Assembly (NCBI GenBank): GCA_916610825.1
Contig: OU744446.1
Location: 15,496,538 to 15,560,537 of the forward strand
Length of the DNA: 64,000 nucleotides
Direction: 5' to 3'
Origin: Haliclystus octoradiatus
Lineage: Eukaryota; Cnidaria; Staurozoa; Stauromedusae; Haliclystidae
Shown piece after piece: positions 8,801-56,100 of this stretch. Under the pieces are notes generated by a model that saw nothing but the letters and a program-made list of their open reading frames with translations, was not told the origin of the DNA and ran no database searches. Made by a program: the position numbers and the translations under genes. Each line of letters starts with the position of its first letter. Position 1 is the first letter of the stretch.

Positions 8801-11800
8801 AATAGCTACTATTCATATAACATAACATATTCCAAAAAGAGCTATATTCCTTCAAAGTTGTCACTTTTTATAATCACACTTTCTAGCACATACTTATCAC
8901 ATCAGCAGGATTATCGTGTTGCTACGCAACAATACTGTAACTGAGGTTAAATGTGACAGAAATAGATTTGAGATGAAATTCCAGACGAAAATAAAGATTT
9001 AATCTTTAATAATTTGGGGCTCTATACGACTATTAAAAACTATGCAATACATGAAACAATATGAAGAAAGAGGTGGTCTACAGCTGTAATAATTACGGAT
9101 ACAAAAGAGAAAAAAATGAATGAATAATAGCTTTTTTACAATGAAGACAATGAAAAAGACATGGAAGGTGAAATGTTCTATCGGAATGGATATTTTAGTT
9201 TATTATATATATATTGTTGGCTGTATATATAAATTGGCTGGTTTATTTAGTTTATATTTTAGATATTTTAGTTTTTATTGTCCAGCAGGTGTTGATAATG
9301 AAAATAAATGCTGACCTTGGTGGCTGACATATCTGTAATCCAACAGTTGCACAAATATTGTCAACATTAAGGCACGAAAACAAGTAAACCAGCTATCGCT
9401 CGCAATCTTTAAGTCCTTCTTTGTGTCTATTTATTGCGCCCACACTTTCCGATTTACTACGATACAAAACATAATTACAAATTACAATGGGTATATTGAT
9501 TATTTGAAATTTCTGTGCAACTTAGCAGAGTGATGATAACAAAAAAATTGCCGATCTGAGTAGCCGACAGTAGTATAAAACAGGGGCTCGCACGATCAAA
9601 GGAATATGGGTACAGGAAACACGTAGACATCACGTGATCTTCATTCTAAAAATAGGCATCATACGACGAAAGAATGTGGGTACAGGAAGTAGATGAATAT
9701 CATGTGATTCTAGTCTAAAAATAGGCATCATACGACGAAGGAATGTGGGTACAGGAAGTAGATGAATATCATGTGATTCTAGTTTAAAAATAGGCATCAT
9801 ACGACGAAGGAATGTGGGTACAGGAAGTACAAAAATATATTACGTGATCTTGTACTGAGAATAGAATAAATTAGACAGATGAGGTCATGTCTAAATATAT
9901 ACAGGATACCCATATCACAGCTTCATAAAGTAGTGTTGAGCATGTTCTAGCATATATTCAACCTCATTCGGGTGTTATTCTGAGTATAAATAGAATACAA
10001 TCCAGCAGCTATAGCTTTACAAGCACAGTTACAGTAGACAGGACTCAAACTACGACCATGGCTTCAGCTGTTCCAGAATGGATTCATGCAAGCCAGGATA
10101 GGGCAAGAGACACACTTAGAAGAAAGAAAGATACGCGCCTATTTAAGAAAATGCTAAAATCATGGAGAAGCACAAAATCCTCTTACACAAATGTGGATGT
10201 AACGGCTCATGTAGATGAACAGAATAGAACTAAAGGATTATATGCCTTGATGCAACAAAGTAACAACAATGGTACTGAAATGGGATCAATTCTATTACAC
10301 GCTTCAAGCATCCCTGACATTATCAGAGCACTAAACTCTATCAAGAGATCTTTTCAGACTTACAGTAAACAATTACAGAAAGTCGAAGTAGATAGGATGG
10401 GTGATACGAGTATACAGATGGAGATGCAGGAAGACAAAGATGAAAAAGTGCCAGTGACACATCTAACAGTGGATGAATTGGAACTTACATCATGGCAATC
10501 GAGACATAGATTAGAAATGGCCACTGTCTACGCAGAGCTGATGTTGAAGATTTTTCCAGACGTCGTGAAAGATTTGTGCTATGGTTGTCAGAACGACTGC
10601 CCATCCCAGAAGGATCATGATCTATGTCTGATGGCTGACTTTGAAGCCCAGATAGACACCACGTTCTACGACTTGATCAATCGTGTCGACGAGGAACTCG
10701 CCAACGCAAAACTGTTTTCATTTCTAAGCAAGAATGAAACTATGGCAATAAATACCAAACGACTCTACTTGCATAAAGTCGATCTACTTCGTGATCCCGA
10801 GTGGGTTGACGCTGTCAAGAGGAGCATGGCAAAGTCAGATGAGATTAATGTGGAAGAAGAACAACCCGAGAAGAAAGATTCAACAACAGTAAAGATAGAA
10901 TAGATGGGAATCCAATATAGTTTTACAAAAAAAAATAATCATGATATAATGTAATAATAAATTGTATTTTTTCAAGTAAAAGAGAAATATACTAACAAAG
11001 GGATTAATGAGTTATATCTGGAAATGTTTCTTTATGTATTTACAAATCAATTCTAGATCATTCTAGATCATATAATTACGCTATTCTATAGAAATGTCTT
11101 TGTGTCCGTATGGCAGTGACGTTACTCCGTCTGCCAGCAAGTACCGCTTATCATCGGACGACGCGAGGGCTTTCTTTGTCATGGTAACAGTTTGTAGTTT
11201 ATGATTTTTAGACCTGATCTGGGTCATACTACGAATAACAATAATTGAATCGAAGAGACATCTTTTGTAGTCCTCAAAAGACAGATGCTTTTGAATAGTG
11301 GTCTTCTTTACACCTTTAGCTTTTTTCACCTCTTTCCCCTCAAAGTTGAAAGCATAAAGCTTGGCCCTAAGCCCGACGAATTCAAACATAGGCTTTCCAC
11401 CAAGTTCATCTTTAAATTTTCCAATAACCTTTTTATTCTCCGTGGAATAGCAATGATGGTCAGATGGATAGCCACTAAAATCAAAACGGGTGTGGTCTTC
11501 TGCCATATCTGAATAAATATCTTCCGTTTCAATAGTATAAGCTAGCGAATCGGTGTCTGTAAACAACAGTTTAGATCTCTGCCCAGGATATCTCCTCTTC
11601 ACGTAATCGTAATGAAAGGTGTACATAAGCAGTTTACTTAAGTCAAGGATACAAAATCCAACATAAAGAGGTCTGTTCAAATACAGTTCGGCTTGAGCCC
11701 TCTCTACGGCACATAAATTCTGATGAAATATTCTAAAGGATTTGAAAGTCGGCTTACACACCAATTTTTTTAAACTCTGTGGATTTGTTACCAGATTTAC

Positions 11801-14800
11801 TGTCCTTCTATTTCGTAAATTCTCACACGTTTTGCCAAAACAACTGTTGTTGGCAAGCTTGAAAAAGTTTTTTTCAAACTCGTTACTTGCTTGGGCGCGT
11901 TTACTTGTATTAAATGAAATAAACACCTTCAACCAAGCAGACTGTGAGAATGACAATACCTAAAGATATAGGAAGTAAATGAAAACGACTGTTATTGAAA
12001 GTAATTGTACACAACGTAAAGCTCAATCTCTCAATAAATGATGACATGGTTACCTGGTGAACTTTTCCAAGTATCATACCATGATCGAGGTAAAACTTCA
12101 AGTTTCTATAATGTACAATGTACTTTTCTTTGTTTCGGAGGTTCGGAACGAGCTTTGTAGAACTTGATGTTCTAGTTGTGAACGATCCATTCTCTTGATC
12201 GAGTACATAGTTGTGACATGGGGAGCGCATGTCGGGAGTGATGACCATCTTTTCTGGAGCCAACGGGTACTCGGAATGTTGATCATGAATAGACGGAGGA
12301 TATTCTAGATCACATTCCAGTACGTATCCGATTTCACTGTCATCAGAAACGGTGCCAAAATCCAAACTGGAAATTTCCGACTCAGAAAGCCAGCGAAATT
12401 TTCCAGTTGGAAGTGGCTCTGACATGGCCCAGCCGTACAAATTACTGAAAAGAGAAGAATAAAAGCGCTCGATTAGACATCTATTTTCATGCAGACCAGA
12501 CAATAAAACAGATACGATGCCAACACATGACACTCACTTTGCATCCCAGTAAACCAAATGAGATGTAGGATCTTTGGAATTGTACTCAGGACATCTGGGA
12601 TTATTTGCTTTGGCATAACGATGTGAAATCACTGCCACACCACCCCGGAGGCCCTCTTCGAAGAACAGATGCTTGTCTACGTCACACAAGAGCTCCAACT
12701 TGACACCTGTCATCTTCAAAGCTGCACACCAAGCCATACCGGGCGAAGTGTAAAAGTGGCACGGATCAAGTCCGTAATGCTGAAGACAAGTGTCTCTGAA
12801 CGCCTCAAACACATCTGCCAACAACACCACATCCGTCAGGAGATAAAAGTCATGATACTCTCCCAAGTTTTTCATATTAAACGATTCAAAGACGTTCTTA
12901 GCGTGCTGGTAATCCTGTTCAGATACGCCTTCTTCTGTAATGCAGCTGTAAAACGATTCTGCTGGTGGTAGGGAAGACTCATCGAATCGTGCCCAACTAT
13001 CCATATATTCATACGGATACACGCCCTTTCTCTTCATCAGCTTCATCGCCTCATTAACAAAATCGTCAGACATGTCTGTTTTTTCCAGGTAACAACGCAA
13101 CGTCTTCAACTGTTCCATTGACAAATTGTCCACCAAAGAACTGAGACTCGATGGCATGAACTGCATCGAGTCCAGGAAAGTGGCTCCACCGATTTTAAAA
13201 GTAATGTACTTTTCCATGTCGAGGGGAATGCACTCAATCACTTTTCCATGACGCTCAGTCACAGAACCCATGATGTGATGAGCATCATATCCCCTCAAAT
13301 TATGAAACACGACAGGGATCTTAATGCGATCCTGATCAAGCCGGTATTGCAAATTGCAATTAGAATGGGCTGCACCACGATAATGTCCGGTGATATGATC
13401 ATGGTCCATGACCTTGTGCCTCCCGTCCTTATTATTAGATAACGAAAATCCACATTTACCACAGATGTAGCAGTTCTGTGCAGCATCATGCGTCCTCTGT
13501 TGATACGGTGTTAAGGGGATCATTTTCTTTGGATTACGTACAATATTTTTGATTTTTTCCAACTTTTCAGCTAAGGTATCTAGAAAATGTGTCATAGGAT
13601 CTGGACCCCTATAAACCACTGGTTGCTCCGTGTATTCCTCACAAGACGATTTAAGGATAAGTCCGTATCCACATGCCACGTGTTGAGAAACGACTTTGGT
13701 TGAACCTCCACTGCTGACGTTCTGGTCAGTTGTCTTGATGAGGAGACTTTCCGTATCAGCGTAAAACACAAATGGAAGACGCATCTGAGCTTCCAACTTT
13801 GTGAACTGCACTATGTCTCTTTTATTAATGTCACCTTTCAAGGGTAATCGGACGCGTTGAGCATTGTGCTTTTTACATCGATCAATATGTTTTTCCAACA
13901 CTTCCGCTGACCAACATCCATGCAAGCAATATTGACAGAAATGTGTTTTCGATTTCCGCTTGTTATGCTGTTTACTTAGGAGCCTGCTCAGGGAATCAAT
14001 TGTGACGTAATGACTTCTTTGTCGGTTCTGCACATCAATATCCATCTGATTGTCGAAATTATCGATGTATCTTCTACGTTCATGTTGTTCACCTTCAACT
14101 TCTTCGTCTTCTATAGGAGTGTAGTCATCGGAAATCATCAGCAAATTCACATGGCGAGAAGTGTGTTGATTGTGGGAAATCCTCAGTGGGACAATCTTTC
14201 TATCTTCATAACCAAAGACATGCACAGATATCAAGTTCATTTCTTCGAATTTATCAATGTCTTTTAATTCTATTGGAAAGGTTAAATCTCCAAAATTTAA
14301 AGTTCTTGCATGTCTCTTGTAACTTGCTGTACGATTTTGATTTATCTTGGTGGGATATAGAGCTGCTAGAACTGCCCACATGAAACAACGGTTGTCATTA
14401 TTCTTGACGTTGACTGTGGCTTTCCGTGCCGCCAATTCATCAGGTAAGCTAACAAACGACGATCCACGCAAAGGTTCGTAGGACACTATGCCAACGTCGA
14501 GAGACTCGAAATGGCTGAAAACCCAAGAGGAGCCATTTTGTTGGTACTGCTCAATTTTATTAAGTAGTTGATCATGAGAAACATCAAGAAAGAAATCCAA
14601 TTTCTTATCCAGTCTGAGCAGGCGAAAAACTTCCGAACGGAATACAACTGGGGGATCAGTCACTTCGTTCACATCATCAGACTTGTGAAAAATGACCGAT
14701 GTTGAAATGAAAAACTTGATCGCAGATCTCTCACGGCATTCTCTGGCAATAACGTCGGAGAATAACGAAACCATCTGTTTGAAGTGAAACAAAGAATTAC

Positions 14801-15385
14801 TGACATTGTTCGGACCAAAATCTTTCGTATACACAATGGCTGTCTTGTTTAGGGAAGATTTTTTCACCGTTGGTGGTAGATCGGCATTGTAAGTAGATCC
14901 ATCATCAGTGCTCTCAACGTTCACTCCGGACCCACCCTGCTGTACTTTGGTATCATCAAAATGCTGGTCGAGTATGTCACGACAATGACGTACATGCAAT
15001 TCGAGTTGAGTTTTCTTGGCGTAGCACTTACCACAACATGAACACATGTGTGGTCGCTTAACATCATGGCATCCCACGTGATTTAAATGCTGCTGTTCGT
15101 CCACAAAAAGCAAGTGACATACCTCACACTTGTAAAGCATATCAATTTCTAGGTCTTCACTTGCTGTTGGATTTATGAAGGCTTGAGAAAAGTCAATAAT
15201 CATAGTGCTGGAGGACTGCGTAGTAGCATGGTTTGTATTCACTTGCTCAACATCAACAGGAGTGCTAATATCATCAGCAATAGTCATGTTTTTGAAAAGA
15301 GCACGTGCAGCCAATTCCGGGTCAAAATTAGCCACATCATCATTATCATCGTCATCATAAGCAGCAGCATCATTATTGTTATCAC

Positions 15386-15430
<45 letters not shown>

Positions 15431-18400
15431 CTGGAACAACCTGAATAACAATGAGTTGAAAACAAAACGAGAAATAAAATATTGAGCGGACCAATGGTAT
15501 CTCAAAATTTCTTTTGCAGGGTTTCAACAGACATAATGTTTGTACAATATTTTTACCTTGTCTGAGACGGCATCATCTGCACCAAGCTCATAACGCACTC
15601 GATCCATGTAATAGTCGTGATTAACGATATCATTCTCATCATCGGACTGTGGCAGGTTATCTTTGAAGTCTCCCACGATGACAATGTCATTGCTAGGCAC
15701 AGGCCCGCTCGGGAGTGAAACACTAGTCTTTTGTGGGATGGTCTCTGTGTTATCTTGAGAATTGGTTGACTTTCCTACTAGATTCCTTTTGCAAATAGAA
15801 GCGTGATTTTTAAGATGCTCTTTCCGTGAGAAATCAACCAAGCAGGTTGGACACTTGAAATTCCTGCTTCCATGTACCTCCATGATGTGTCTCTTGAGCG
15901 AATATTTCTTTGTAAATCTTTTCTGACATGATTGACATCTGTAAGGCATTCTATCTTTTCCCGGTGCTTCTTCAAGAGACAGATGGTGAGGGCAGCTGTC
16001 AATGAAAAAAAAATGAGCAATATCAGTCAACTTTTATAGCCTGAGGGTATACATAAGGTAACCAAATAAGGTAATCTACATTACAAATATGGTCAAGACT
16101 GACACGTGACAACTGACAATACAGACAAGCCCAGGCAAGCCTTTCTCTTTGTCAGATTTGTATAAACAAAAGCGGGGTAGTGAAAACGAGTCAGATTCTG
16201 GCCATTGCAGTGAACCATGGACGTGAGATTGCATCATCCGTTCAGCATGTTAGTCTCGGGGACGCGGGGCTCGGGGAAGACAGAGTTTATGAAAAGGCTG
16301 CTGAAATACGGAGACGTGATGATCACCCCCGATATCAACCAAGTTATCTGGTGCTACACCAAACATCAACCCAAGCTCTACGATGAATTGATGAAGCTAA
16401 AGATGGCAGTCAAGTACATCGAAGGTCTTCCCAACGATTTGACATCCATGCTCGACCTCAAAACGAACACTCTGGTTGTGCTAGACGACATGATGGACAA
16501 GTGCAAGGATGGAAGAATCGCCGAGTTGTTTTTCAAGGGTCGTCACGACAATATGAGTGTGGCCATGCTAACACAAGATCTGTTTCACAAAGACCAGCGA
16601 TTGATATCACGAAACTCGGACTACATGATCATCTTTAAGAACCCGAGAGATGCCTCGCAGTTTACCCATCTAGCCAAACAAATCAGCCCTCACAACATCA
16701 CATTCCTACAACAGGCCTATCAAGACGCTGTCAGAGAACCGCATTCTTATCTATTTCTCGACTTTAAATCGACCACGCCGGAAAAGTTTCGCATTCGGGC
16801 CAGAATACTGCCAGACGAGTTCCCACATCACAACTATCAGGAGCGAACGTGATGCCTTGTACCTACATATCTCGTGCAGATAAATGTCTCTCTGTCAGTT
16901 GCTAACATACCACGGTGACATGCACAACAGCGCCTCCACGCGGACATGACGCATAGAGTGAAGAAGAACCTACCTATACTGAAGGCGCTGACGACGTGCA
17001 AACACAAAGATCAGCAACAATTCCTCAAGGTAGCCAGCCCAGAGCTCATCCATTCCATTTGCGATATAGTTCTCAACGTGTTGAAAGGTCGAATCCCCAT
17101 CAAGCCCGACCAAAAGAAAAAGCTGTTTAAACATCGAAACTTGCTGAGAAAACTTGTCAAGCCCAAGCAATCGGTGAAAACTAAACGCAATTTATTGGTT
17201 AACCAGAAAGGAGGTGGACCTATAGGTGCACTGATAAAGCTTTTAGCCAATGCTCTTCTGTAGTGATGTCCACCCACTTTAGAAGACACGTAGTGATCTC
17301 ACCCGAGATGTACGATTCTTTGATATCAAAGACGGACAGCAAAGCAATACTGAATCCGGAGAAACATGCCATGATGACAGCGCACAAGGACATCGAGGCA
17401 AACCTACGACGTGAAGACGTACCAGAAGATCAAAAGGTTCAGCAATACGTAGAGGATCTCAACGAGTTTCAGCATTGGCGAAAAGCAGTTACAACACCGA
17501 AACCTGTACCTGTAAAGCTCAATATAAGCGGTGTCAGAGAAGAGGCATCCCCCAGCTCTAGGGAGGACAAAGAGGGTAAAAGTGAGGGAGGAAATTATAT
17601 TGAAGTCGTCACAGTGGATTCACTCCCCAAATCTCTACGTCCACAAGGAGAAAAACTACTGAAGGCCATCAAGAACAACAAGGGAATCGCGGGGTGGAAC
17701 GATCGTGGAGAGCTCATCTACAAGGGTCGGGTCATTCCCGGTTCAAATGTCACCGACTTGGTACTGAATATATTGCGCACTAGAAAGGGGGATGATGACC
17801 ATATACCTGAATTTCACAAAGCCTTATTTTCCAAGACTTTAGCTCAGATCAACGTGCCCATGGATTGGATCAAGAATAAAAAACGATTGCAGAGTGTACG
17901 ATCCTACAAGCAAGGCACCAAGTCACGAAAGACCAGTGATGATGATGATGATAATCATGGCAGTGACGTGACATTTGAAGACGTTGAAAGTGATGGAAGC
18001 GTCGAGAACGTTGCACCTCTGAAAACGGCGAGAAAGCGTGTGAGAGGGGCGTTCTCTCCCAAGTCGAGAATCCCTTTCAAGGCGGCAAAAAAGTTACCGT
18101 GGCTGTCTTCTACGGCCTCCAGGCGATAGAATTGAATCAGATATAACTTACATGTAGATATTTAGCATTGTCATTTGAGAGTGGGATGTTGTAATGATAA
18201 GATGTCATTTCAATTTAATGCAAGAGAACTACTCGAGAAACTAAAGTGTATCTTTATCTGCTGTTCATCTGAAATCAATCTTCATACGTCCGAGACGGAT
18301 GGTTTGGAAGAGTCGGAAGATCAACCGGACGGCTTCGACGAGATAGACTGTCCACATCCAGACGCGGCAGATGAGTTCTACAATCGATAAGACCACCTCC

Positions 18401-21400
18401 ACTCAGTTGGAAAGTCTATACTATGACCTGGACAGTCCAGCTGCTTATTCTGGAAGAGAAAGTCTGTTTCGTGAGGCTAAGAAAGTACTTCCTCTATTGA
18501 CTAGGGAGCAGGTGACCGAATGGCTGAAGACCCAGCGGACATACTCTTTACATCACCCTTCTAGGAAGAACTTCAAAACTCGCCCTGTCGTCGTCTATAG
18601 CATGGACGAACAATGGGTCGTGGACCTAGTAGACCTGAGCAAATTGTCCAGGGTCAACAACGGCACAAGATATTTGCTAATGTGCATTGACGTACTGTCT
18701 AAGTTCCTGTGGGTGCAGCCCTTGAAAACCAAAACCGGAGCAGAACTCACAAAGGCATTTGTCAAGATATTAAGATCGGGCCGTCAACCCAAGAGAATTC
18801 AGAGTGACGAGGGAACAGAATTTTATAATCGAACTTTCCTACAGCTTTTGAGGTCTAACGGCATCAAACTGTTCTCGACAAAAAGTGAAAAGAAGGCTTC
18901 GGTCGTAGAGAGAGTCAACAGGACCTTCAAGAACTTACTGTTTGCCTATTTCACAAAAAACAATACACGTCGGTATCTTCCGGTTTTGCAATCCCTAACG
19001 GCAAGATATAACAAAGCTTATCATCGTTCAATCAAGATGAGACCCATCGATGTCACCCCGGACAACGAGATAGAGGCCTGGATCAACATCTACGAGCGCA
19101 AGAGATTGGAAGAGAGACCTTCAAGTCGAAGCAAACGGCTTGGCATTGGTGACACCGTGCGGATCAGTCACAAGAGAACATTGTTCCGCAAGAGCTATTT
19201 GTCTGGTTGGACAGAAGAACTATTCAAGATAAAACATATTGTCGATGGTAGATTGCCGGTGTACAAGCTTGAAGATTTCAACGGTGAACCCATAATTGGA
19301 ACATTTTACCGAGAAGAGCTGCAGTTGGTGAAAGACCCTCAGGTATACAGGATCGAGAGGATCATCAGAAAGAGAAAGACCAAAGATAATCAGACTCAAT
19401 ATTTTGTCCGCTGGCTAGGCTACGGACCTGAATTTGACTCCTGGGTTCTAGCATCTGACATCGAAGGAACATGAATGTTGACAAGATCACAGAGTTTTAT
19501 GTCACGCTTGCTAGCAACTGCAACCTTGATTTGCATCCAGATAATAAAGCATCGAGTTTTCAAATCAAGTTGTCCAAGCCTTTGACGTTAAAGGGGCATT
19601 GGGAAGTGGCGCTATCCGAAATACGATATCCTCGTACTTGGTACAACGTCAGAAAGGGATTTAACAGGATTCAGATAACGGATGGAAGCACAACGTATCC
19701 GCTGACCCTTGCTCCGGGTTATTACGGATCAACCGGAGACGTTATTCAAGCTCTGAAAGAAGCAGGTCTGGGAACAACTACGATGCCGACAGTGAAAATA
19801 AACTACAATAAATCCTCGGGTCACACCACCGTTGTCATACCATCCGGCTGCAAGCTGGATTTTGAGAATTCGGATATCAGCTACTTACTCGGATTTCCGC
19901 GCAAAGCACTGTTGGATGGTGGTAACTGGGTACAAGACTCACCATTTATGACGTCAATGGAGGACGGCTTTAATTCACTTTATGTTTATACAGACATCAT
20001 TAAAAACCAACACGTTGGAAACGTCTCTGCCCCTCTCCTTAAAGTGGTACCCATTCGAGGGGCACACGGTGAATCTGTAAGCCTGAAATTTACCAACCCA
20101 CAATTTTCACCTTTGAGTCAGACAGAGATACACACGATTGGTGTGTATATAACAACAGACACTGGCGATCTCGTGTCATTCCAGCGAGGGGAGAGCTTAG
20201 TGACCCTGCTCTTCAAAAGAAGTCCTGTCCGTTTCTATGAGTAGCCGAACCGAGACAGGCATTGTCTGTAGGAGAAAGAAAGGTCAATAACAGAAGAAAT
20301 CGATTTTTATTTAAAAATATTAACAATGTACAACTGGTACATGGATCCTAGTCGTAGGATGATGCATCCGCGAAGGCAACGAGGTGGCTCTGGTCTAGGT
20401 GGTATGTTCAAGTCCCTCATCCGATCCGTGGCCCCTATGGTTAAACGTGGACTCTTGTCAGCAGGAAAGAGAGCACTTAGAACTGGAGTAGACGTGCTCG
20501 GTGATGTGGGAAGTGGTATGGACCTGAGCACTTCACTGAAAAGACGTGGTCAAGAGACGTTGGGTGATATGGTGACCGATGTCTTCTCACAACCACCGAT
20601 AAAACGTATAAAACTCAAGAGCAAGACGAACAACCGCAGTTCGTATCGAGCAGGCACACTGAAAGGACGAACAACATCATCGAAAAAGTCTGTATCTCGA
20701 AAGAAAAAGAAAGGAGCAAAGTCCAGCGGGTCCACGGATATATTCTCTTGAATACCATCATCATCATCATCATCATCATGGAGAAAGACGCCACTATCGG
20801 AGCAGAGTGCTTGCTGTCCGAAGTAGAATTATTTGAGCCGGCTTATGTTCAAGCTGTGATTCAAAGTGGTCAAATGGAAGAACATTTCCCTTTGAATAGT
20901 ATTGCTGACGGGGGTCCCATCGAATTTCAGATAAATAATTCTTCAGATCAGTTCATCGATCTTGCCTATAGCTATTTGAAAGTGCGATTGAGGATAGTCA
21001 AAGGTGATGGATCGCCTGTCGAAGACACACATCACGTCGGATTAGTAAATAATCCCATTGCCAGTCTATGGTCTCAAGTGGATGTTAATCTAGGCGGTCG
21101 TACTGTCTCAAGTGCGACCAGAACCCATGCCTACAGAAGCATGTTTGAGAGCTTGCTAAGTTACAGCAAAGACACGTGTGAGTCTCAACTATCCATGGGG
21201 CTATGGAGAAAGGACACCCCGAAATTCATGGACGTCAGTGACCCGAATGGTCAAAACGAAGGACTCAAAGAGAGGGCGAGTTACACATCAAAAGGTCAGG
21301 TGCTTGAGCTCCGTGGTCGTCTCAATAGTGATTTACTCCATCAGCCTCGTCTGTTGCTTAACGGCGTACCCCTGAAAATAGTACTGCACAGGCAGAAGGA

Positions 21401-24400
21401 CGCCTTTGTCCTAATGAGTGATGACAATGATGCAAATTACAAAGTCAAACTGTTAGAAGTGACGTTCTGCGCTAGAAAACAAATCCTGACTCCACACCAG
21501 TTCCTTTCTGTTCAAAAACGTCTGTCTAGTCAGAATGCCAAGTATCCTCTCAATCGTGTTGTGGTAAAAAGTCATAGTATTGCTGCTAATGTTACGAGTG
21601 TCTCTTGGCAACATGCCATTGTTGGGGCACTCCCCACGAGAGTCTTTCTAGCCATGGTGGATAACACTGCCTTTTCCGGAGACTACAAACAGAACCCTTT
21701 CAATTTCAAGCATTACGATCTCACCAGTATGGGTGTTTACGTGAATGGAAAAAGCACACCGGGAAGACCTATGAAATTCAATTTCAAGACCCAAGATTAC
21801 CTAGATGGCTACATGAGTCTATTTACAACCTCTTCTAGAATATTCCTAGACGAGCCTCTCAATATACAACGGGAGGACTTTAATGACGGGTACAGTATTT
21901 TTGGCTTTCATATTAGTCCGTCTGCTAACGAGAGCGGGTTTCAAGAGCCAAAGGTCACCGGAGATCTATCTGTCAATTTGGAATTTGCCGGACCCCTCCC
22001 AAATTCCGTATCCATCCTACTCTATGCCGATTTTGACAATTGCATTAGTATTGATAAAAATCGCAACGTATTGACAGACTATTGAACAAACCGTCATCAA
22101 TACTCGAGAGCTCACAGAAATTCTATCCCGTGATGGTTACATGAATCATTTAGACACGGCAGGGGTGTTTGCTCATGACCAGTTTATGGCTCTGGATTGG
22201 ACGCCCGTTAGAAAACATCAGAAAGCTGTTTTTGTATTCAATTCGGAACCTAGTTGGATGAGCGGAGAACATTGGCTGCTTTGCTATTTAGATGGGTGTG
22301 GTCATGTGGTGTTTGTGGACTCTTATGGGAAATCCCCTCAAATTTACAATGTGGAACACAAGCTAAAGACGATGGGAAACTATTTGAGTTATATTGATAA
22401 TTGGCAGTTGCAAGATAACTTCTCAGCTGTATGTGCAGAGTATGCATTGTTCTTTGGATTCTTGTTATGTCGTCATAAAGAATTGCATGATATTCTACGA
22501 GACTATTTCCATCCAACGGATAGATTACTTAACGACCAGATTGTGAGAGATTTTGTCAACGCTACGTTTCCAGGCTACCAGAGGTCAATAGAAGAGGATG
22601 CTGGTTTTATATTGACACAAACTGTTCGGAGCCTTCTCATGCAATGATAACACAATCATGACAATCTAGAATGGTCATGTCTTTTAATCACATATTACTA
22701 GCATTTAAAATATTTTTGTTTGAGATCTTACCTTGTATTTCTTTCCAGTTGTACTTGCTTTCAATTTATATTAGTTGATAGTTCCAGTGTTGTAATAGAT
22801 GTACTTTCCCAGTTGGAGAATAAATCAAACAAACAGAGCTTGTCGTTGAGTTGATTGTTTCTCATTCTACTTCATGATGTAAAAAAACCGGATTCAATCC
22901 ACTTTTATAGCATTTTGAGATTAAAGGGGTCAAAGGTTAGGCAAATAAGGTCATCATTTGACGGTCGAAATTGAAATGAACTTTGTCTTGTTTATTTATG
23001 TTTAGTAGATTATGAAATATGTAACTGTGCAATCACATATGTTAGGAGATAGAGTTTTGGAAATACACATCTACTATGCGGCTTCATGGTAAAGGTAAAG
23101 CTGAACAAAGGTAAATAGCCTTCAATAAGTGCCGTGTTGCTGAAACAACGCGTAGACGTCATCAATGTGTCTTTTTTTTTCATGGTTTAGTAGATTATGG
23201 AATATGTAATTGTGCAATCACATATGTTACGAGATAACGTTTCGGAAATACACATCTACTATGCGGCTACACAGTAAAGGTAAAGCTGAGCAAAGGTAAA
23301 CAACCTTCAATAAGTGCCGTGTTGTTGAAACAACGCGTAGCCGTCATCAATATGTCTTTTTTTTCATGTAAAACTGATGCATTATGCAATGGATAACGTC
23401 AGATCACATATTTCTTTTTTAATTTCCCAAAAAAAAAAAAAGGTATAAAAGCACGAAACCAATTTTTTTTTCAATCGTCTTCGAAACCTTATCCACCATG
23501 GATTTAAAACAGGAGTCAGATGAACAACAGCCATCAACCTACAGTTTGAGATACGGGTGAGATTCTATTCTAGTTAATTGAATTTGAATTAATTGGATGA
23601 TTTAAGATGGGTGTCTTTGTTCTTAATTTAAATGATAATATTAATGGTTAGAAGTGTAGATGCTAACAATGGTAATGAGAATGACAGTAATGATTGTAAT
23701 AATAACAGTAAATGATAGTAACGCTCTCTTTTTTATCCTCCAGCTTAAACGTGTTATTTGGAAATAACGCAGAGACAGAGTTGTAAGTTCGTTGCTATTA
23801 CAATTCAATTTTATGTTCAGAATTGTTCAGAGCACACTGTAATTGGTTCGTTTCTGTCTTCTTATGCGCAGGCTGTATATGCTACTTGCCGATAGGCAAG
23901 AAAGTAGTTTATGTATCATCAGATCCTTGGTGTGGGCATTATTAGAATGCCTTATGCAAAGATCAAGAAGTATGTAATTATGCTTATATTTGTTTTGAAG
24001 TTCCCGTGTGACTTTCATGATTATCCAGCTAATCATCAAAGTCATTGTTATTATTATTTTAATTTTTTTTTCTTATGAGCTCTCTTTTCTTTCTCTCTCA
24101 GACTACAATACAATTTACACGCTTACTGTGTGCGCTCATGTTCTGTAAGTATTCTAGACATTATATTTTCCTTTTTTTCCATCTATCATGTGCATCTAAT
24201 TACTATTTGTTTCTTCTTTTTTAATTCAAATTCAGACTGGTACTGGAAAAGGTTGACAAGACCGACCAGGAAAAGTTTGATTCTATCAATGAATTATTGG
24301 ATGGATTTCTAAATCACATGCAACTTATGTTGTGATAATAATTTTTTTTTTTTTTTTTTTTTCCATGTTAACATTAAAAAAAAAAAGTAATAATAGAAAA

Positions 24401-27400
24401 AAAAGTAATAATAGAAAAAAAAGTAATGAACAATTACATGAAAAAACTGTCATTATCGATATCTTGTGCCTTTTCTAACTTCATCTTTTGGGTTAATACA
24501 TCAGTAGAATAAGTAGTCTCAATACTAAAACGGGAGTTCAAAATCTTTAACAGTTTCACTAGCTCGGATGCAAAAAGATAGATCCCACCAACTACCTCAC
24601 CGTCTTTGAAGTTGCGTAAAACAAACATCGCATATTGCCCTTGTTTCATTGATGAGATACTAATTTTGCTTTTCTTTGTCGGGGATGGATTTGAAATGAA
24701 AATAGTTTTCAATTTCCACGATGGTTCCTCTTCTATTTTGAATGGTTGAAATACTTGGTTGTCTTTCAATTTAGTGTACACGTCCAAAATCTTGGTGAAA
24801 TCAATATACTTCATTTGACTTGCCATTTTTTCACCTTTACGGCATAATAATTGCAACGAGGCGTAGAACAGTTTCTTCGTGACAGACTGTTCTTTGAAGC
24901 CGAATGCCGGTAAAGTCGCGCGGTCCGATAAATCTCGCACGATAACAGTCGGAATGTCGCCTTTGATTTCATAGAGTACTTTAAATTTACTCAGGCTTGT
25001 ACAATTATATTTAGTTAACATCAATCTTTTTTTTATGATTTCGGGGCTTTCTATCACAGCGTCTTTGGTTTCATTCTGATTATCCAATTCTGCATCTTCA
25101 AGAGTGCTATTACTATAATCGTCATAACCATCAATGTCTTCAATGTCGTAAGTCAATGATCCAGATGTATTCTTGGCTTGTTTACTGTGACCTTGGATGC
25201 TCTCTTCAGATATCATTGAAGTCTGCTTACGTTTCATGTTTTCACTCTTCATCTTTACGATTGGTGATGTATATATGTTTTAATGATATTAATGAAATAG
25301 TTCTCTTCTCTATTTATACAGGTTTGCTTGTGACCTTTGACCTAAATGTCGGAAGAAATACTGGTTTCGAAAATCATATGATATTCTTGTACTTCCTGTA
25401 CCCACATTCCTTCGTCGTATGATGCCTATTTTTAGACTAGAATCACATGATATTCATCTACTTCCTGTACCCACATTCCTTCGTCGTATGATGCCTATTT
25501 TTAGACTAGAATCACATGATATTCATCTACTTCCTGTACCCACATTCTTTCGTCGTATGATGCCTATTTTTAGAATGAAGATCACGTGATGTCTACGTGT
25601 TTCCTGTACCCATATTCCTTTGATCGTGCGAGCCCCTGTTTTATACTACTGCCGACATAACTACAATTCAATATTTACACATAATGTTTTCAATTTAAAG
25701 GATAAAAACAACATCAGAAATTGATTTTAATGAATATTGCCATGTAAATTCCATTTTGACAATATCACTCTTCCATTAGCTTTTTGAAACAAAATCCGAT
25801 TAAATTTACGCAACACATAAGGCAGTGAATTAGAATTAGCTTGCATTACTAATCAATTGGAATTGCAAAATTTTTATTCGCGGTTGATAATTGTATTACA
25901 TGAGAGGTACTTAATTTTGACTTTACAGAAAACCGACAAGTAAAAGACACACTTTTCTGCAGCTCCTTCATTTTATTCTAAAATCATCATCAGGCAAATG
26001 AAAGAAAGAGAGAACAGGTTTACATCGTGTATATAGTAAAATAGTACTGTACGTAATCTATTAAAATGTTGTGCTCATACGACTGTAACACACTAAACAA
26101 CGCATGAATCATTATGACAGAAGAGATGGTCTATCGCAGTACTAATTACGGATACAATACAAAACAAATATGACACAATAATTACTTTTATACTAAGAAA
26201 ACAATGAAACAAAGCATAGAAGGTAAAGGGTTCGATCGGAATGATCACAGGTATTTTAATTTCTATAGTTCAGCAGGTGTTGATAATGAAAATATTGCCA
26301 ATCTAGCTTTATGACATGAAAAATTTCAAAACAATATGTAAATTAAGTTTTCATAACTATAAGTACGATGTAAACCTGTTCTCTCTTTCTTTCGCTTGCC
26401 GAGTGATAATTTTAGAATAAATCGAAGACATTGCAAATGGTTGTGTGTTTTATGGGATTTTGTACTTAAATTCACAAAACGTAATCAGTTAGTGTAATTA
26501 GTATAACTGATAATCAGAAATTAAGAAGGTTATGAACAGTGAGAGCCAAAATTCTCCTACTGAACTTGTTTTAACTTCGATAATTGAATTCAAATGTGCA
26601 GAACTTTATGATTAAGAACTACGATGTACAAATTAATTTGCGGCTATGGGGCTATTAAATCCCTCCGCTTTTAAATCGATAATCATACGTGTTATGAAGC
26701 ATTAATTTTTCAGAGAAAGGACATAAATATATAGATAACTGACAATTATAGATTAGATTGCCTGATGATCGCTTAGGCGTGAAACTTGAAGTAGCAAAAA
26801 TGAATGTTTGATTTTTGTGTTTTTCCAATTAATTTAATCATATATAGCTCTGCATTTACAAAGGTCATTGAGCACTATGAAAACAGTACAGACAACATAA
26901 GTACTATTATAGATAACTGACAATCTATTTAAGCGACAAACAACCGAGGATAAAAGGATTTGTAATACCTCAAGTCGTGAATTTCAACATAAATCAGCAA
27001 ATTTGCATTAAAACAAATTCCTAGCTTATGATTATATCATATTTGTATAGGAAGTCAACATTTTTCAAACAATTCCTTTTTTAATTTACTTCATTGACGT
27101 AGGAGTATACGTGAAAGGTGATGTTGAAAAATCAATAGTGAGGACTTATTGCAAAAGATGTATTCTAACCATAGACTTACGTAGACTGCTGATTCCATTG
27201 CCAAACTTCTTGGAAAACACATAGCGACCATGGGCATCCATAATGGCTGAAGCAAAGTACCAAAACAGAGGCTTGAAAACCACGAAATTTCAAGCCACTT
27301 TTTGAGCAAATTTTGTTTCTAAATGAAACAGGATTTTTTTTATAAAAGAGTTATTTATGACTACCAATTTCAAATTGCCCACCAACATGAGTTAAAATAT

Positions 27401-50100: not shown

Positions 50101-53100
50101 CAGCTCCGCCATATCAATTGTTAAACCTTTTATTATTTGAATTCAATCATATTCAAGTTAAAAGCAAACGTAGACCTCGCCCATGCTATTAATTTTGTAA
50201 AGTTTAAATGAGAGCATTTTTAAAACGTGGCTTAAGATTCCCACGAAATTAAATTTGGTATCCAGCTCCCTTTTGAGACTGTTGAGCTATTATTGAAATC
50301 TTTAAAACCATTTCGTAAATCGGAGAAAATAATGCACTATACTGCATATCACATGTATCAACAAAATAGAGTCGAACTATACAAGGTTCATATCGGTTTC
50401 CGACAAATTCCTGACCCAGTATTTAAGACCAACTTTCGACGGTTTTCCGACAAACCAGCTTTTTCCAACCATGTGACTTCGTGTGTTTAGCGGGAAGTAG
50501 CGCAAACTAGAGTTTCCCCAGGAATTGAAGATCCTTGTGTAACGATGGTGGATTGAGATATAGGATAAATCGTTACTAGAAAATACACATAGACGAGACA
50601 GTGATGAATCGTTATTTATGTCTTGTTCTAATGGTACGGTAGTCTTGTTCTTGTTCTACGGTAGGCAGAGGACTGTTATTTGATATTGTTATATAAGTGA
50701 ATTCAATGACTAAATATTACAATACATGATTGAGAGGCTTAATGATAAGTCGTACAAAATTAATAGTAACAATATTTATGATATATTGAGGTAATAAATT
50801 CGTATTATATGCTTCAAATAGTGTAAATGTTCAATGCTAATTAAGGGTAATTCTAAATGTTCTAATATTGAAATTAATTAATAAAATAGTGTAATGTAGG
50901 TTCTAGTGAATATAATTAGTAATGATGATAGTAATAAAAATGTAAATAGACGGTAATAATTGGTGTGAATACGAGGTAATAATATTGGATGTAATAATTC
51001 TTTAATTTGGTGAGTAATAGATAGTATTTGGTTGAGGGTTGAATCGAACTGATCGTCAAGATCGTATTTTGGGTACAGTGTTTCTAGTTGAATATTGATT
51101 GTTGGTTGTAATAATGGTGCTGAGGTTGATGTTGAAGTTGACGTAGAAGGAATAGTTGGTTGAATTGTAGTAGTTGGTGTTAACGTGGGTTGGGCGACTT
51201 GAGTTGGTAGTGTAGCAGGTTTTAGACGATCAATAGAAACAGTATAACGAGTACCAAATTTGTCAATCACAAAAGTATTAAGATTTCTGAAAATTACTTT
51301 GTACGGTCCTTGATAAGGTGCTTCGAGCGGTTTCCTAACGCGATCAATTCGTAGCCAGACGTGTGTACATGTGGTAAGCTTTGGATCAACATAAGATGGT
51401 ATAGTAGTAGGAGTACGTGAAGGTGTTCGATGAAGATATGGTAATATGGAACGGAGCTCAGTTACGAGAGTTTCGGGAGAGTTAAAATTAGATGTCATTG
51501 TACGAGGAATTAAAATGTTTTCACCAGTGACAATACTGAAAGGTGATAAGCCGGATTCGTCAGGTGACATGCGGGTAGCTAGGAGTGCCATTGGTAGAGT
51601 GCGAAGCCAGTCTTGTTGTTTGCGCGAAGAATTGTTTTGATTGTGCGATGATTGCGTTCGATTTTGCCGTTAGATTGAGGATGATAGGCTGTAGTGAGGA
51701 CACGATGAAAACCAACTGAGGAGGCGAGAGACTTTTGAAATTCGGCAGCTTCAAATTGACATCCACGATCTGTTACAATGTACAAAGGAACACCAAATCT
51801 TGTAATCCAGGTAGATAAAAATGTTGCTGCAACGGTAACAGCGGTTATGTCAGGAAGTGGTGTAGCTTCTTTCCAGCAAGAAAAACAATCAATCATCGTG
51901 AGTACATGACGTGGAGAAGGGAACAAAGAAATAGCAGGATCAGATTGTACATCAATTATATCAATATGGACAGTTTCAAAGCGTCCTGTAGGCAATAATA
52001 AATGCCCGTGTGGAGATTTGGTGTGTCTAGTGACTTTTTGCTGTTGACATGTTAGACATGTTTTGCAATATTCTTTGATGTCAGAATTCGTTGATGGCCA
52101 GAAATATCGATCGTGCCAAAATTTCCTAATGAATGAAATTATTCAATTAAGGTTTTACGAAGTTGTGATGGGATGTATGGGCGTGGCATATTTCTTGATG
52201 TATCACATAAAATTGTTGTGTTAGAGGTTATAGGAAATGATTTTAGATTATGGTTAGCAGGAGGTGATGACTCTTTTTGAGCCTCGATGATAGCAGGTAA
52301 ATCAGCAGCAATAATAGAGACAGCAGATGTAGTATGTTCAATGGTAGAAGAATCAGGTGTAGCTTGAGCGTGACGGCCATTAGTAGATATCGGAGTGTAA
52401 GATGTTGGTGTTGCAGATGAAAATATATCGGGCTATCGTGACAAGGCGTCGGCGACAGTGTTCTGAGAACCACGAATATATTTTATAGAATTGATGTATT
52501 CAGCTAGGATTGAAAGGTGTCGTTGTTGTCGGTCGGATGGGCGTGGTTGATGGGATTTAAATGCTTCTGTTAATGGACGATGATCAGTGAAGAGAGTGAC
52601 TTGACGACCTTCGATGAGTGGTTTGAACTGCAAAGTACCAAGGTAAGCAGCTACAAATTCTTTGTCAAAGTTGAATAGTTTTGGTGAGCAGAAGATAGTT
52701 TACGACTAAAAAAACCAAAAGGTACAGGACCATTGGATGTTGTTTGATGTAAAGCTGCTCCTACGGCGTAATTTGATGCATCTGTTACTAGAGTATAATT
52801 AGTATAATCAGGATTAGGATGATATAATAAAATGCGTTTAGATAGAATATCTTTGATAGAAAGAAATGCATTTTCAACAGAAGGTGTACATATATAATCA
52901 GGTTTAGCATTCATAACTTCGTGTAAGGGAATAGCTAATTTAGAAAAGTCAGGTATAAAGCGACGATAAAAATTGATAGATCCAAGAAAACTTTGGAATG
53001 ACTTATGATCAACAGGCGTAGGCCAATTGGTAAGTATTTCTGTTTTACAAGGACGTGGTTTGATGCCATTTGATGATATGGTGTGACCAAGAAAATCTAG

Positions 53101-56100
53101 TTCATATTGTGCGAAACTACATTTAGATAATTGCAAAGGTAATCCATGATCACTGAGGGCTTGAAAAATTAATTTTAAATATTCGTAATGTTCATCTAAA
53201 GTTTCTGAGGCGATTAAAATATCATCGATATATGCAAATGCAAAAGGAAACGGGCGTAAAATATTGTCTATAAAACGTTGAAAAGTTTGTGCGGCATTCT
53301 TGAGACCAAAAGTCATGCGATTAAAATGAAAAAGTCCGAATGGTGTAATGATTGCAGTTTTGTGTTTATCTTCTTCAGCCATTGGAATTTGGTGAAAAGC
53401 ACGAACTAGATCTAACTTTGAGAAAATTGTTTTATTGTGGAGTTGACGAGTAAAAGATTGAATATGTGGTAACGGATAACGGTCAGGACAAGTAATGTAA
53501 TTTAATGAGCGATAATCACCGCAAGGGCGATATTTTCCAGTAGGAACTCCATCTTTTTTCTTAGCGACCATGTGCAAAGGCGTGGCCCAAGAGCTGTCTG
53601 ATGGACTTATGTAGCCAGAATTGAGTAATTGTTCAAATTCGGAATGAGCAAGGTCAAGCTTTGTTTGTGAGAGTTGACGAGCACGTGCGTGAGTAGGTTG
53701 AGAGGTTGAAAAGAACCCAGTATCTATACGATGTACTGTGTCGTGGGACACTTCTGTTAACGTAGGGAGACTACCGCCTTCTTTGTAGGTAAATAATGAT
53801 GAATGTTCTTGAATTAGATTAGATATTTGTGAAGGCACAGTAGAAGGAATTTCGATAGTAGATGTTATAGGTAAATCAATAGTAATAGCATTTGATGATA
53901 ATTGTACAGATAAGTTTGTTAAGGGATCAGTTAATTTACAATGTCCATAATCAATAATAAGTTTGTGATATTTTAAATAGTCACTACCCAATATTGGAAT
54001 AGTAACGTCGGCTACTATAAAGGTCCAAGGGAATGATCGGCGTAATCTTCTGTAATATACCGTTGAATAGATTTGTCCGGAAACATTAATCTGGTTGCCA
54101 TTGGCAGCTTTTAGTGAATGGTTACAAGGGGAAATATCGACGGAACTTACATAGCGTTTCGGCATAATACTTACTGAAGAGCCGGAGTCAATCAGGAACT
54201 GTAAACGTGTAATGTTGAAACGACCCTCTGTGAAAAGGCGTTTTCGTATGTCAGTTTCTTTGGCTTGTGAAATATTTGTTGAATGTGAATGTTCTTGAGA
54301 ATTTTGTATTTGAGTTGAATTGTTTTGATTATAATTTCTGTGACCTATACGTTGATGACACCAAGGACGACAAGTACGGGCTTTTGATCCATTATGTAAA
54401 TGATCATCGCAAATTGTAGGATATTGATGATTTTGAATAGAATTTGTTGTATCTGTTGTGTTTTGAGCGACGGGTTGATTACGAATAGAATTAGATATAG
54501 TAGACGGTGGAATGATCATAGTGATACAAAATACATAGAGAAACAGTTGATATCTTGATAAAAAGGTAATGAATAATAGTTGAGCAATAAAGCCAAATAG
54601 TTATAATCAATAACCATGTAGAGTACAGAAAATAATATAAACTAGTAAATACGATGAAAATAGCCAAAATAATAGAGCATGTTGATAAAATAATACAATG
54701 AAAAATCCAATAGGCACTGATAAATACTTCGACGGACCAATGTAACGATGGTGGATTGAGATATAGGATAAATCGTTACTAGAAAATACACATAGACGAG
54801 ACAGTGATGAATCGTTATTTATGTCTTGTTCTAATGACGTTAGACAGAGGACTGTTATTTGATATTGTTATATAAGTGAATTCAATGACTAAATATTGGA
54901 ATACATGATTGAGAGGCTTAATGATAAGAGGCTAAAATCTTATACACTACACTTGTATTGGCGGAAAAGTTATAAGGGAAAGAAAGTAAGTCATTTAATA
55001 ATCTGGAAGTAGATGGATATATTACTCTCTATGCTGTCTACTCTACGCGTTCAATAAATGATTTGCATATAGTTGCAATTAAAGAAACTTACCAGGACAA
55101 GTTGGCATGGTGCAATTCTCGAAGCCAGTTGAATCTCCTTGACAGGGATTTACAAAACAGTTCGTAGATGTAATTTTGTATGAACATGATCTAAATGTTG
55201 CTTTTACTGAGACCCCACAGGTAGCGCTACATGCTTCATCAGTTCTCCATGTCGACCAAACACCGTTTGCTGAAATTATCAATGAATCAAATAGGAAGTA
55301 TGAATTTTCTCCCGATATCCTCTATATATAACGTAATCAAGCTTTTGAATCTCTAATATATGATAGTAGTAATTTGTCCTCTTTACTGTTTCCCAAGTAT
55401 TGATCCTGCGCAATTATTTTGAATGTGTCCTGCAGAGAAAATCTTGAAAAACTCTTTCCAAATTTTCGATAAAATCAACTTGATGAAAGACAAAGTTTTC
55501 ATGGTTAGAAAATAGTCCTAGAAAGCAGCATCTATCTGCATCATATGTATAGGGATTACGTTAAAAATGCAAGCTGCACGGATTTTATAATACATGAAAA
55601 CGGGTGAATAAAATCTGTACAAAGCCCTTTCCATGAAGTTTTTAATATATATTCTAGTCATTGATATTTTAACTCTGCAAGTGCAATGAAGAGATGCACA
55701 TCTATGACCGTCCAAGACTATAAATTAGAGACTTTTAACTGCTACAATATGTTTTGGAAGATTTGAAAGTACTTTAGTGCCTATCGGTTTCATGTTTTGA
55801 TTTGAGCACTTGAATAATGTTTGCATAAATCAATCCCAAACTTCGGCAAATTTATCAATACATTTTGCTTCCTTTGCATCTCGCAAAAAGAAAATGAAAC
55901 ACATTATCTGTGATGAAAGATCAAAGACATTGCTGTTTTGGCGCTTAAGTATAGCCTAAATAATTTCAGAAAATAATTGCTTATCAGACAAGACGAGGAA
56001 TAAATTAATTACATAATGGTTTTAGTTCTTTAAGTCTCCAAAGCCATTCAATTTATGTTTAAAGGGTCAAACCAGACCAGCAGCCTTTGCATTCAACTTT

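Follow-up and report, generated by a model that had tools for sequence, protein, structure and literature searches.

A 64,000-nucleotide (nt) stretch of the genome of the staurozoan Haliclystus octoradiatus (contig OU744446.1 of assembly GCA_916610825.1, forward-strand positions 15,496,538 to 15,560,537; hereafter the window) carries a Polinton, within which lies a five-exon gene, here termed gene X, that is best read as a real, spliced, fast-evolving and dispensable accessory gene. X is probably a genuine accessory gene, carried by a lineage of Polintons that bear introns, and its likeliest role is that of a host-interface factor acting in trans. The original prediction, a hidden five-exon gene encoding a protein of 112 amino acids (aa), agrees with the present reading in every element: exons and their phases, GT-AG borders, TATA box and the context of the start. 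Once joined, the exons make 339 nt, encoding 112 aa and a stop, within a span of 23498-24335, and the start context reads CCACCATGG. The features are as follows:

23444..23450, plus strand: TATA box of gene X (TATAAAA)
23498..23556, plus strand: exon 1, 59 nt, ending in phase 2
23744..23782, plus strand: exon 2, 39 nt, ending in phase 2
23872..23969, plus strand: exon 3, 98 nt, ending in phase 1; a homologous stretch occurs in locus L063
24102..24144, plus strand: exon 4, 43 nt, ending in phase 2; the length of 43 nt recurs in L063 and in the L064 exon chain
24236..24335, plus strand: exon 5 including the stop, 100 nt

All four introns (187, 89, 132 and 91 nt) have GT-AG ends and pyrimidine-rich acceptors, and their donors are, in order, GTGAGA, GTAAGT, GTATGT and GTAAGT. 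The gene sits beyond a putative protease gene, towards the terminal repeat; as is expected of an accessory gene, it is not part of the core modules, and some copies of the element do without it. Immediately upstream, at 22984-23368, are 2.1 copies of a 185-base-pair (bp) tandem repeat.

The model was compared with chance expectation using a splice scorer whose weights are generic metazoan frequencies, approximate and not trained on this host. A finder tied to the window phases and to similar exon lengths returned models in none of 400 dinucleotide shuffles and in none of 400 stretches taken from elsewhere in the window. Freed of the phase constraint, the finder returned five-exon models in 0 of 300 shuffles and in 9 of 480 other stretches, the best of which scored 23.1 against 28.4 observed. 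When both tests are pooled, the splice score of gene X was matched by none of 700 shuffles and none of 880 other stretches.

Copies and relatives were sought throughout the genome (262 megabases in 33 contigs), and the slot, flanked by the protease gene and a reverse-strand gene, was inspected in 19 stretches. Apart from the young family of near-identical elements, the nearest relative is L063, which was first matched at exon 3 (tblastn expect value (E) 0.002 over eight stretches). Its five-exon model has GT-AG introns, stays open throughout and encodes 125 aa in exons of 131, 40, 76, 43 and 88 nt; the locus itself is decaying, its reverse-strand gene being interrupted by stops. The L063 and window X proteins are 27% identical and their reverse-strand neighbors 62-73% identical, indicating that X evolves much faster than the gene beside it. 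In L070 and L086, which belong to another Polinton family, a five-exon gene likewise occupies the slot, and the phase-free search returns phases 2,2,1,2, as in the window. The motif TATAAAA is found upstream of the start by 78 nt in L063 and by 44 nt in L070. In L062, the exons, read by eye, have decayed in unchanged order.

A strict finder built on the window layout gave no model in eight loci (L062-L069), four of which (L064, L065, L068 and L069) hold three-exon chains. A relaxed finder gave five-exon models in 6 of 11 loci (L070-L074 and L079, among L070-L080). Its null rates were 1 model in 150 shuffles of L070 (best -4.3 versus 19.4 observed), 3 in 150 of L073 (10.1 versus 15.1), 1 in 150 of L079 (-4.4 versus 8.4) and 9 in 292 window stretches (best 12.6). 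Seven further stretches yielded full models in L082 and L086, models with a doubtful exon 1 in L081, and no model in the remaining four; the exons of L084 match the L073 type, and in the chains of L083 and L087 the fourth and fifth exons do not match. The firm comparisons are therefore L063, L070 and L086, on which L064, L073, L079 and L084 lean. As for the original proposal to examine the same position in related Polintons, splice sites and frame are kept in these three firm loci, an outcome in favor of the prediction; it is less clear for others, which prefer different models when phase is left free.

Several other loci contain X-like sequence. At G000:C6:5647000-5670000, part of which is L081, L070-type X units stand in tandem, with 17 exon-3 matches in about 20 kilobases (kb) and extra pieces of exons 1 and 2. 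Diverged X genes lie at most 14 kb from contig ends, beside fragments of the protease gene, at G000:C1:4706, C4:2305, C5:13310 and C1:39973842 (L083, L087); the terminus of contig C1 is (TTAGGG)n. Two loci with matches spanning an exon junction, L039 and L044, were considered as intron-free copies that would prove splicing, and were rejected as deletions in which the other introns are kept.

Substitution rates indicate that the frames are maintained. Nonsynonymous (dN) and synonymous (dS) rates were 0.063 and 0.76 for L073-L084 (exons 3-5), 0.075 and 0.639 for L069-L084, 0.030 and 0.188 for L070-L082, 0.028 and 0.163 for L070-L086, 0.024 and 0.061 for L082-L086, and 0.008 and 0.061 for L070-L071, more distant pairs being saturated or uninformative. 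The X frames of L070- and L073-type relatives are under purifying selection.

Gene X has been lost from many copies. A search by the capsid gene found the element in eleven near-identical copies, including that of the window, and the X region is complete in only two of them, the window copy and one on contig C11. The segment concerned is:

23476..25356, no strand: segment missing through one junction in 7 of 11 copies; nearly the same segment is gone from two more through another

In the seven copies, the junction is 23475/25357; in the two others, it lies at about 23427/25373; and in all nine, both X and the reverse-strand gene are gone. An insertion into the window and C11 copies was considered instead and rejected: the reverse-strand gene inside the segment is widespread among other Polintons, and its absence, and that of X along with it, is therefore a loss. 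A second family tells a similar story. Among 18 hand-picked copies of the L070 family (protease match of 39-40% over residues 7-188), an exon-3 match of X is present in the slot in 12 and absent from six, and in these six the interval from protease to reverse-strand gene is 692-693 bp, versus 1913 bp in the L070 element. Alignment of two of them, L052 and L055, to L070 showed that the X unit alone is deleted, with the protease and reverse-strand genes in place; the other four presumably lack the X unit as well. Deletion thus produced two junctions in the window family and a single one in the L070 family, and every junction recurs in at least two copies. Copies that had lost X went on multiplying, so mobility does not require X in cis.

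These losses also raise the question of whether the window copy still functions. It could be a once-real gene, now non-functional, in an element that is in the course of losing it; X is missing from 9 of 11 copies, and the X exons of the C11 copy depart from those of the window at two bases, one of which creates an in-frame stop in exon 1 (the splice sites of that copy are kept). The frame, splice sites and TATA box of the window copy are all intact, and this explanation is considered somewhat unlikely.

Under the preferred reading, X is a working accessory gene. Computation shows its structure, its conserved layout, purifying selection in the L070- and L073-type relatives and its loss from many copies; transcription, splicing in vivo, fold and role are inferred, along the following lines. 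From a fixed slot with the protease gene on one side and the gene for a Pur-alpha-like binder on the other, X would be transcribed in the nucleus by host RNA polymerase II under a TATA promoter of its own; its four short introns would be excised by the host spliceosome, and the spliced messenger RNA (mRNA) would be translated into a small protein some 112 aa long. This protein may be a fast-evolving host-interface factor, acting in trans in counter-defense or host-cell tuning. Such a role fits because X changes fast, has no relatives and was deleted across three junctions, in two families that nonetheless stayed mobile. The conservation of splicing argues that the elements are transcribed in the host nucleus. 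With X-bearing and X-less natural copies in a single genome, the role of X is directly testable.

A number of observations weigh against this reading. The evidence for gene X is wholly in silico and drawn from DNA. An alternative exon-3 donor at 23929, with a stop at 24312, has a phase-free score of 28.4 versus 28.3 for the donor at 23969; the latter is favored by L063 and L070, and the scorer alone leaves the two undecided. In L063, the exon-2 donor is weak and the phases are 2,0,1,2, and the unconstrained finder alone shortens exon 2 and chooses a different exon 5. The phase-free finder returns the window phases in just 2 of 19 loci, giving different models or none elsewhere, and L079 would not stand by itself because its score of 8.4 falls within the genomic null (up to 12.6). 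The dN/dS results come from the L070- and L073-type relatives. Finally, hhalign found no similarity between window-type and L070/L073-type profiles (probability 0.1).

Since sequence similarity is undetectable, the common origin of the window-type and L070-type genes rests on slot and architecture. It is conceivable that the window-, L070- and L064-type genes are unrelated and came to share the slot, in which case one family would comprise the window and L063 only, and the identity of window X to L064 at 13 of 86 aligned residues is in keeping with this. Proteins of the L070 and L073 types are themselves 31% identical. Against separate origins, the types share both slot and exon number, the phases of L070 and L086 equal those of the window without constraint, and exon lengths are close (36/39, 92/98, 49/43 and 91/100 nt, the second figure being that of the window). 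Unrelated origins are thus judged distinctly unlikely.

An oddity of the L070 type concerns the distribution of changes between exons and introns. L070 and L086 differ at 17 of 324 exon bases versus 4 of 456 intron bases, and L070 and L082 at 19 of 324 versus 8 of 455. An exon excess over introns is seen in L082, L086, L081, L076 and L077 relative to L070, and also between L073 and L084; the changes are mostly silent and chiefly in exon 5. Nine copies were compared with L070, among which L072 is identical and a trend only is seen in L071 (p 0.074) and in L087 (p 0.059). Intron 3 is unchanged in seven of the nine, and exon 4 differs in five of those seven. Farther upstream, a stretch that extends as far as the protease gene shows 7 differences in 1298 positions between the L070 and L086 elements. 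As the copies share ancestry, the tests are not independent, and the excess may stem from exon-limited conversion, pressure on the spliced mRNA or intron constraint. It is tempting to suggest a broader scenario, in which Polintons rely on the host spliceosome; an old, dedicated slot holds a five-exon gene architecture that has outlived protein similarity; the L070-type excess comes from spliced-mRNA pressure (escape from small RNAs) or exon exchange via spliced complementary DNA; and X-less deletion derivatives repeatedly multiply. This scenario as a whole is regarded as doubtful.

It had also been suggested that the gene was captured from a host. Under this hypothesis, an animal gene was taken up, introns included, by an ancestral Polinton and has since diverged beyond recognition. 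Spliceosomal introns and a TATA promoter are indeed host-like, and nematode Mavericks carry captured genes. Against capture, a genome search with window X gave eight matches, all in the two Polinton copies; no clear host copy was found in the genome (not every setting of the 141 exon-search matches was checked); the layout is common to several Polinton families; and introns occur also in the polymerase gene of the same element. External databases gave no credible relative. Four X proteins had no match in Pfam; a PDB profile search with X gave nothing credible (best E 0.048 over 25 positions); and a database of 5.8 billion proteins gave one candidate for window X, with none at E up to 10, and 1490 candidates for an alignment of X proteins (A2), none of them confirmed. 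Viral contigs scanned with window X, the capsid protein of its element, a capsid alignment and the L070-type protein yielded no confirmed relatives, and Rfam recognized no family in 22600-25700. In the A2 alignment, no stretch showed enough conservation for such a scan. A death-fold or Bcl-2-like identity of the protein was considered as a mere impression and dropped. Host capture is therefore possible but unsupported, and we consider it improbable. The same searches, together with the exon model, bear out the earlier statements that X would be missed by simple open reading frame (ORF) calling and that its protein lacks recognizable relatives. Because ORF-based surveys of Polintons and virus-like elements miss spliced genes, the accessory genes of such elements, among which host-interaction factors are often located, would be undercounted.

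That the splice-like signals are fortuitous and mark no gene is very improbable, for while the evidence is in silico and the alternative exon-3 donor scores equally, no shuffle or stretch reached the observed score, the layout is kept in L063 and dN/dS is low in other families.

The original remark that such dense splicing is unusual in a virus-like element needs one correction: splicing is not peculiar to X, because the polymerase gene of the same element also has GT-AG introns. Adenoviruses and other nuclear DNA viruses possess small early genes spliced by the host; these are small, host-spliced accessory genes like X, and no sequence similarity to X was found. In vertebrate Mavericks, as here, diverse genes occupy accessory regions flanking a conserved core, and the terminal motif is the same (Barreat and Katzourakis 2021; PMC8097293). 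The genes of those intact elements are reported to lack introns, on which Kapitonov and Jurka, in 2006, reportedly agree, whereas gene X has four and the polymerase gene at least two, and a five-exon spliced accessory gene in a Polinton contrasts with such intron-free elements. Cryptophyte polinton-like viruses, which are of a related kind, resemble the present case in that a short gene close to their capsid gene is interrupted by an intron (PMC12220804). Those introns are self-splicing group I introns of 309-376 bp; the introns of X, in contrast, have GT-AG ends and pyrimidine-rich acceptors, and Rfam gave no match. Adintoviruses, animal viruses of Polinton kinship, also have accessory genes, some proposed to be anti-apoptotic or oncogene-like, and the covered part of that report does not mention spliced genes (PMC11071296); the adintovirus literature gave no lead to X, and no sequence link to X was found, none having been sought. 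A spliced Polinton accessory gene was not found in the literature searched, whose scope left out most subscription journals.

The carrier element and the neighbors of X are as follows:

9569..25650, no strand: Polinton, about 16.1 kb, with ends (AGT)2/(ACT)2 and a 6-bp target duplication, GCCGAC
11081..16033, minus strand: DNA polymerase gene, several open stretches; the GT-AG introns between them measure 93, 94 and perhaps 116 nt
22075..22647, plus strand: putative protease gene, bordering the slot on the side opposite the reverse-strand gene; its name rests on position, with no Pfam match
24434..25249, minus strand: reverse-strand gene, predicted Pur-alpha/Whirly-like nucleic-acid binder, from a structure model and structure matches

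The terminal inverted repeats of the Polinton are 274 bp long and 98.9% identical, and GCCGAC is read on either side. Both contain 69-bp tandem repeats (9645-9829 and 25372-25574). Between them stand, in order, an unnamed gene (10058-10903), the polymerase gene, a Pox_A32 ATPase gene, another unnamed gene, an integrase gene, three structural-type frames, the last of which encodes the major capsid protein, the putative protease gene, gene X and the reverse-strand gene. Pfam identified the integrase as retroviral-type (rve, E 2.6e-11, with a chromodomain) and the packaging ATPase as A32-like (Pox_A32, E 1.3e-10). The major capsid protein was assigned through relatives, namely Porites proteins named capsid protein or major capsid protein; its best relative, at 50% identity, is from the hydrozoan Clytia.

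In the polymerase gene, omission of 93 nt with GT-AG ends yields YWDANNLYGWAM at the splice junction, a motif regarded as typical of protein-primed DNA polymerase B and by which the family was tentatively assigned; the one piece scanned against Pfam had no match. Removal of a second intron, of 94 nt, yields GKVHQVLSFSQSAWLK, and there is plausibly a third, about 116 nt long. These introns serve as an internal control, in that the element uses GT-AG introns.

The reverse-strand gene is widespread in the Polintons of this genome, with 84 matches, 66 of them at E up to 0.001, some being pieces of one gene. Its modeled protein (predicted local distance difference test (pLDDT) 62, predicted template modeling score (pTM) 0.65) has two units, each of four strands and a helix. 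The best match was to Pur-alpha (E 1.1e-4; template modeling (TM) score 0.63 by target length), that to Whirly being weaker (E 0.076), and the product is probably a single-strand nucleic-acid binder. Elsewhere in the window, frames at 50878-54600 on the minus strand resemble a retrotransposon, with apparent reverse transcriptase and integrase motifs.
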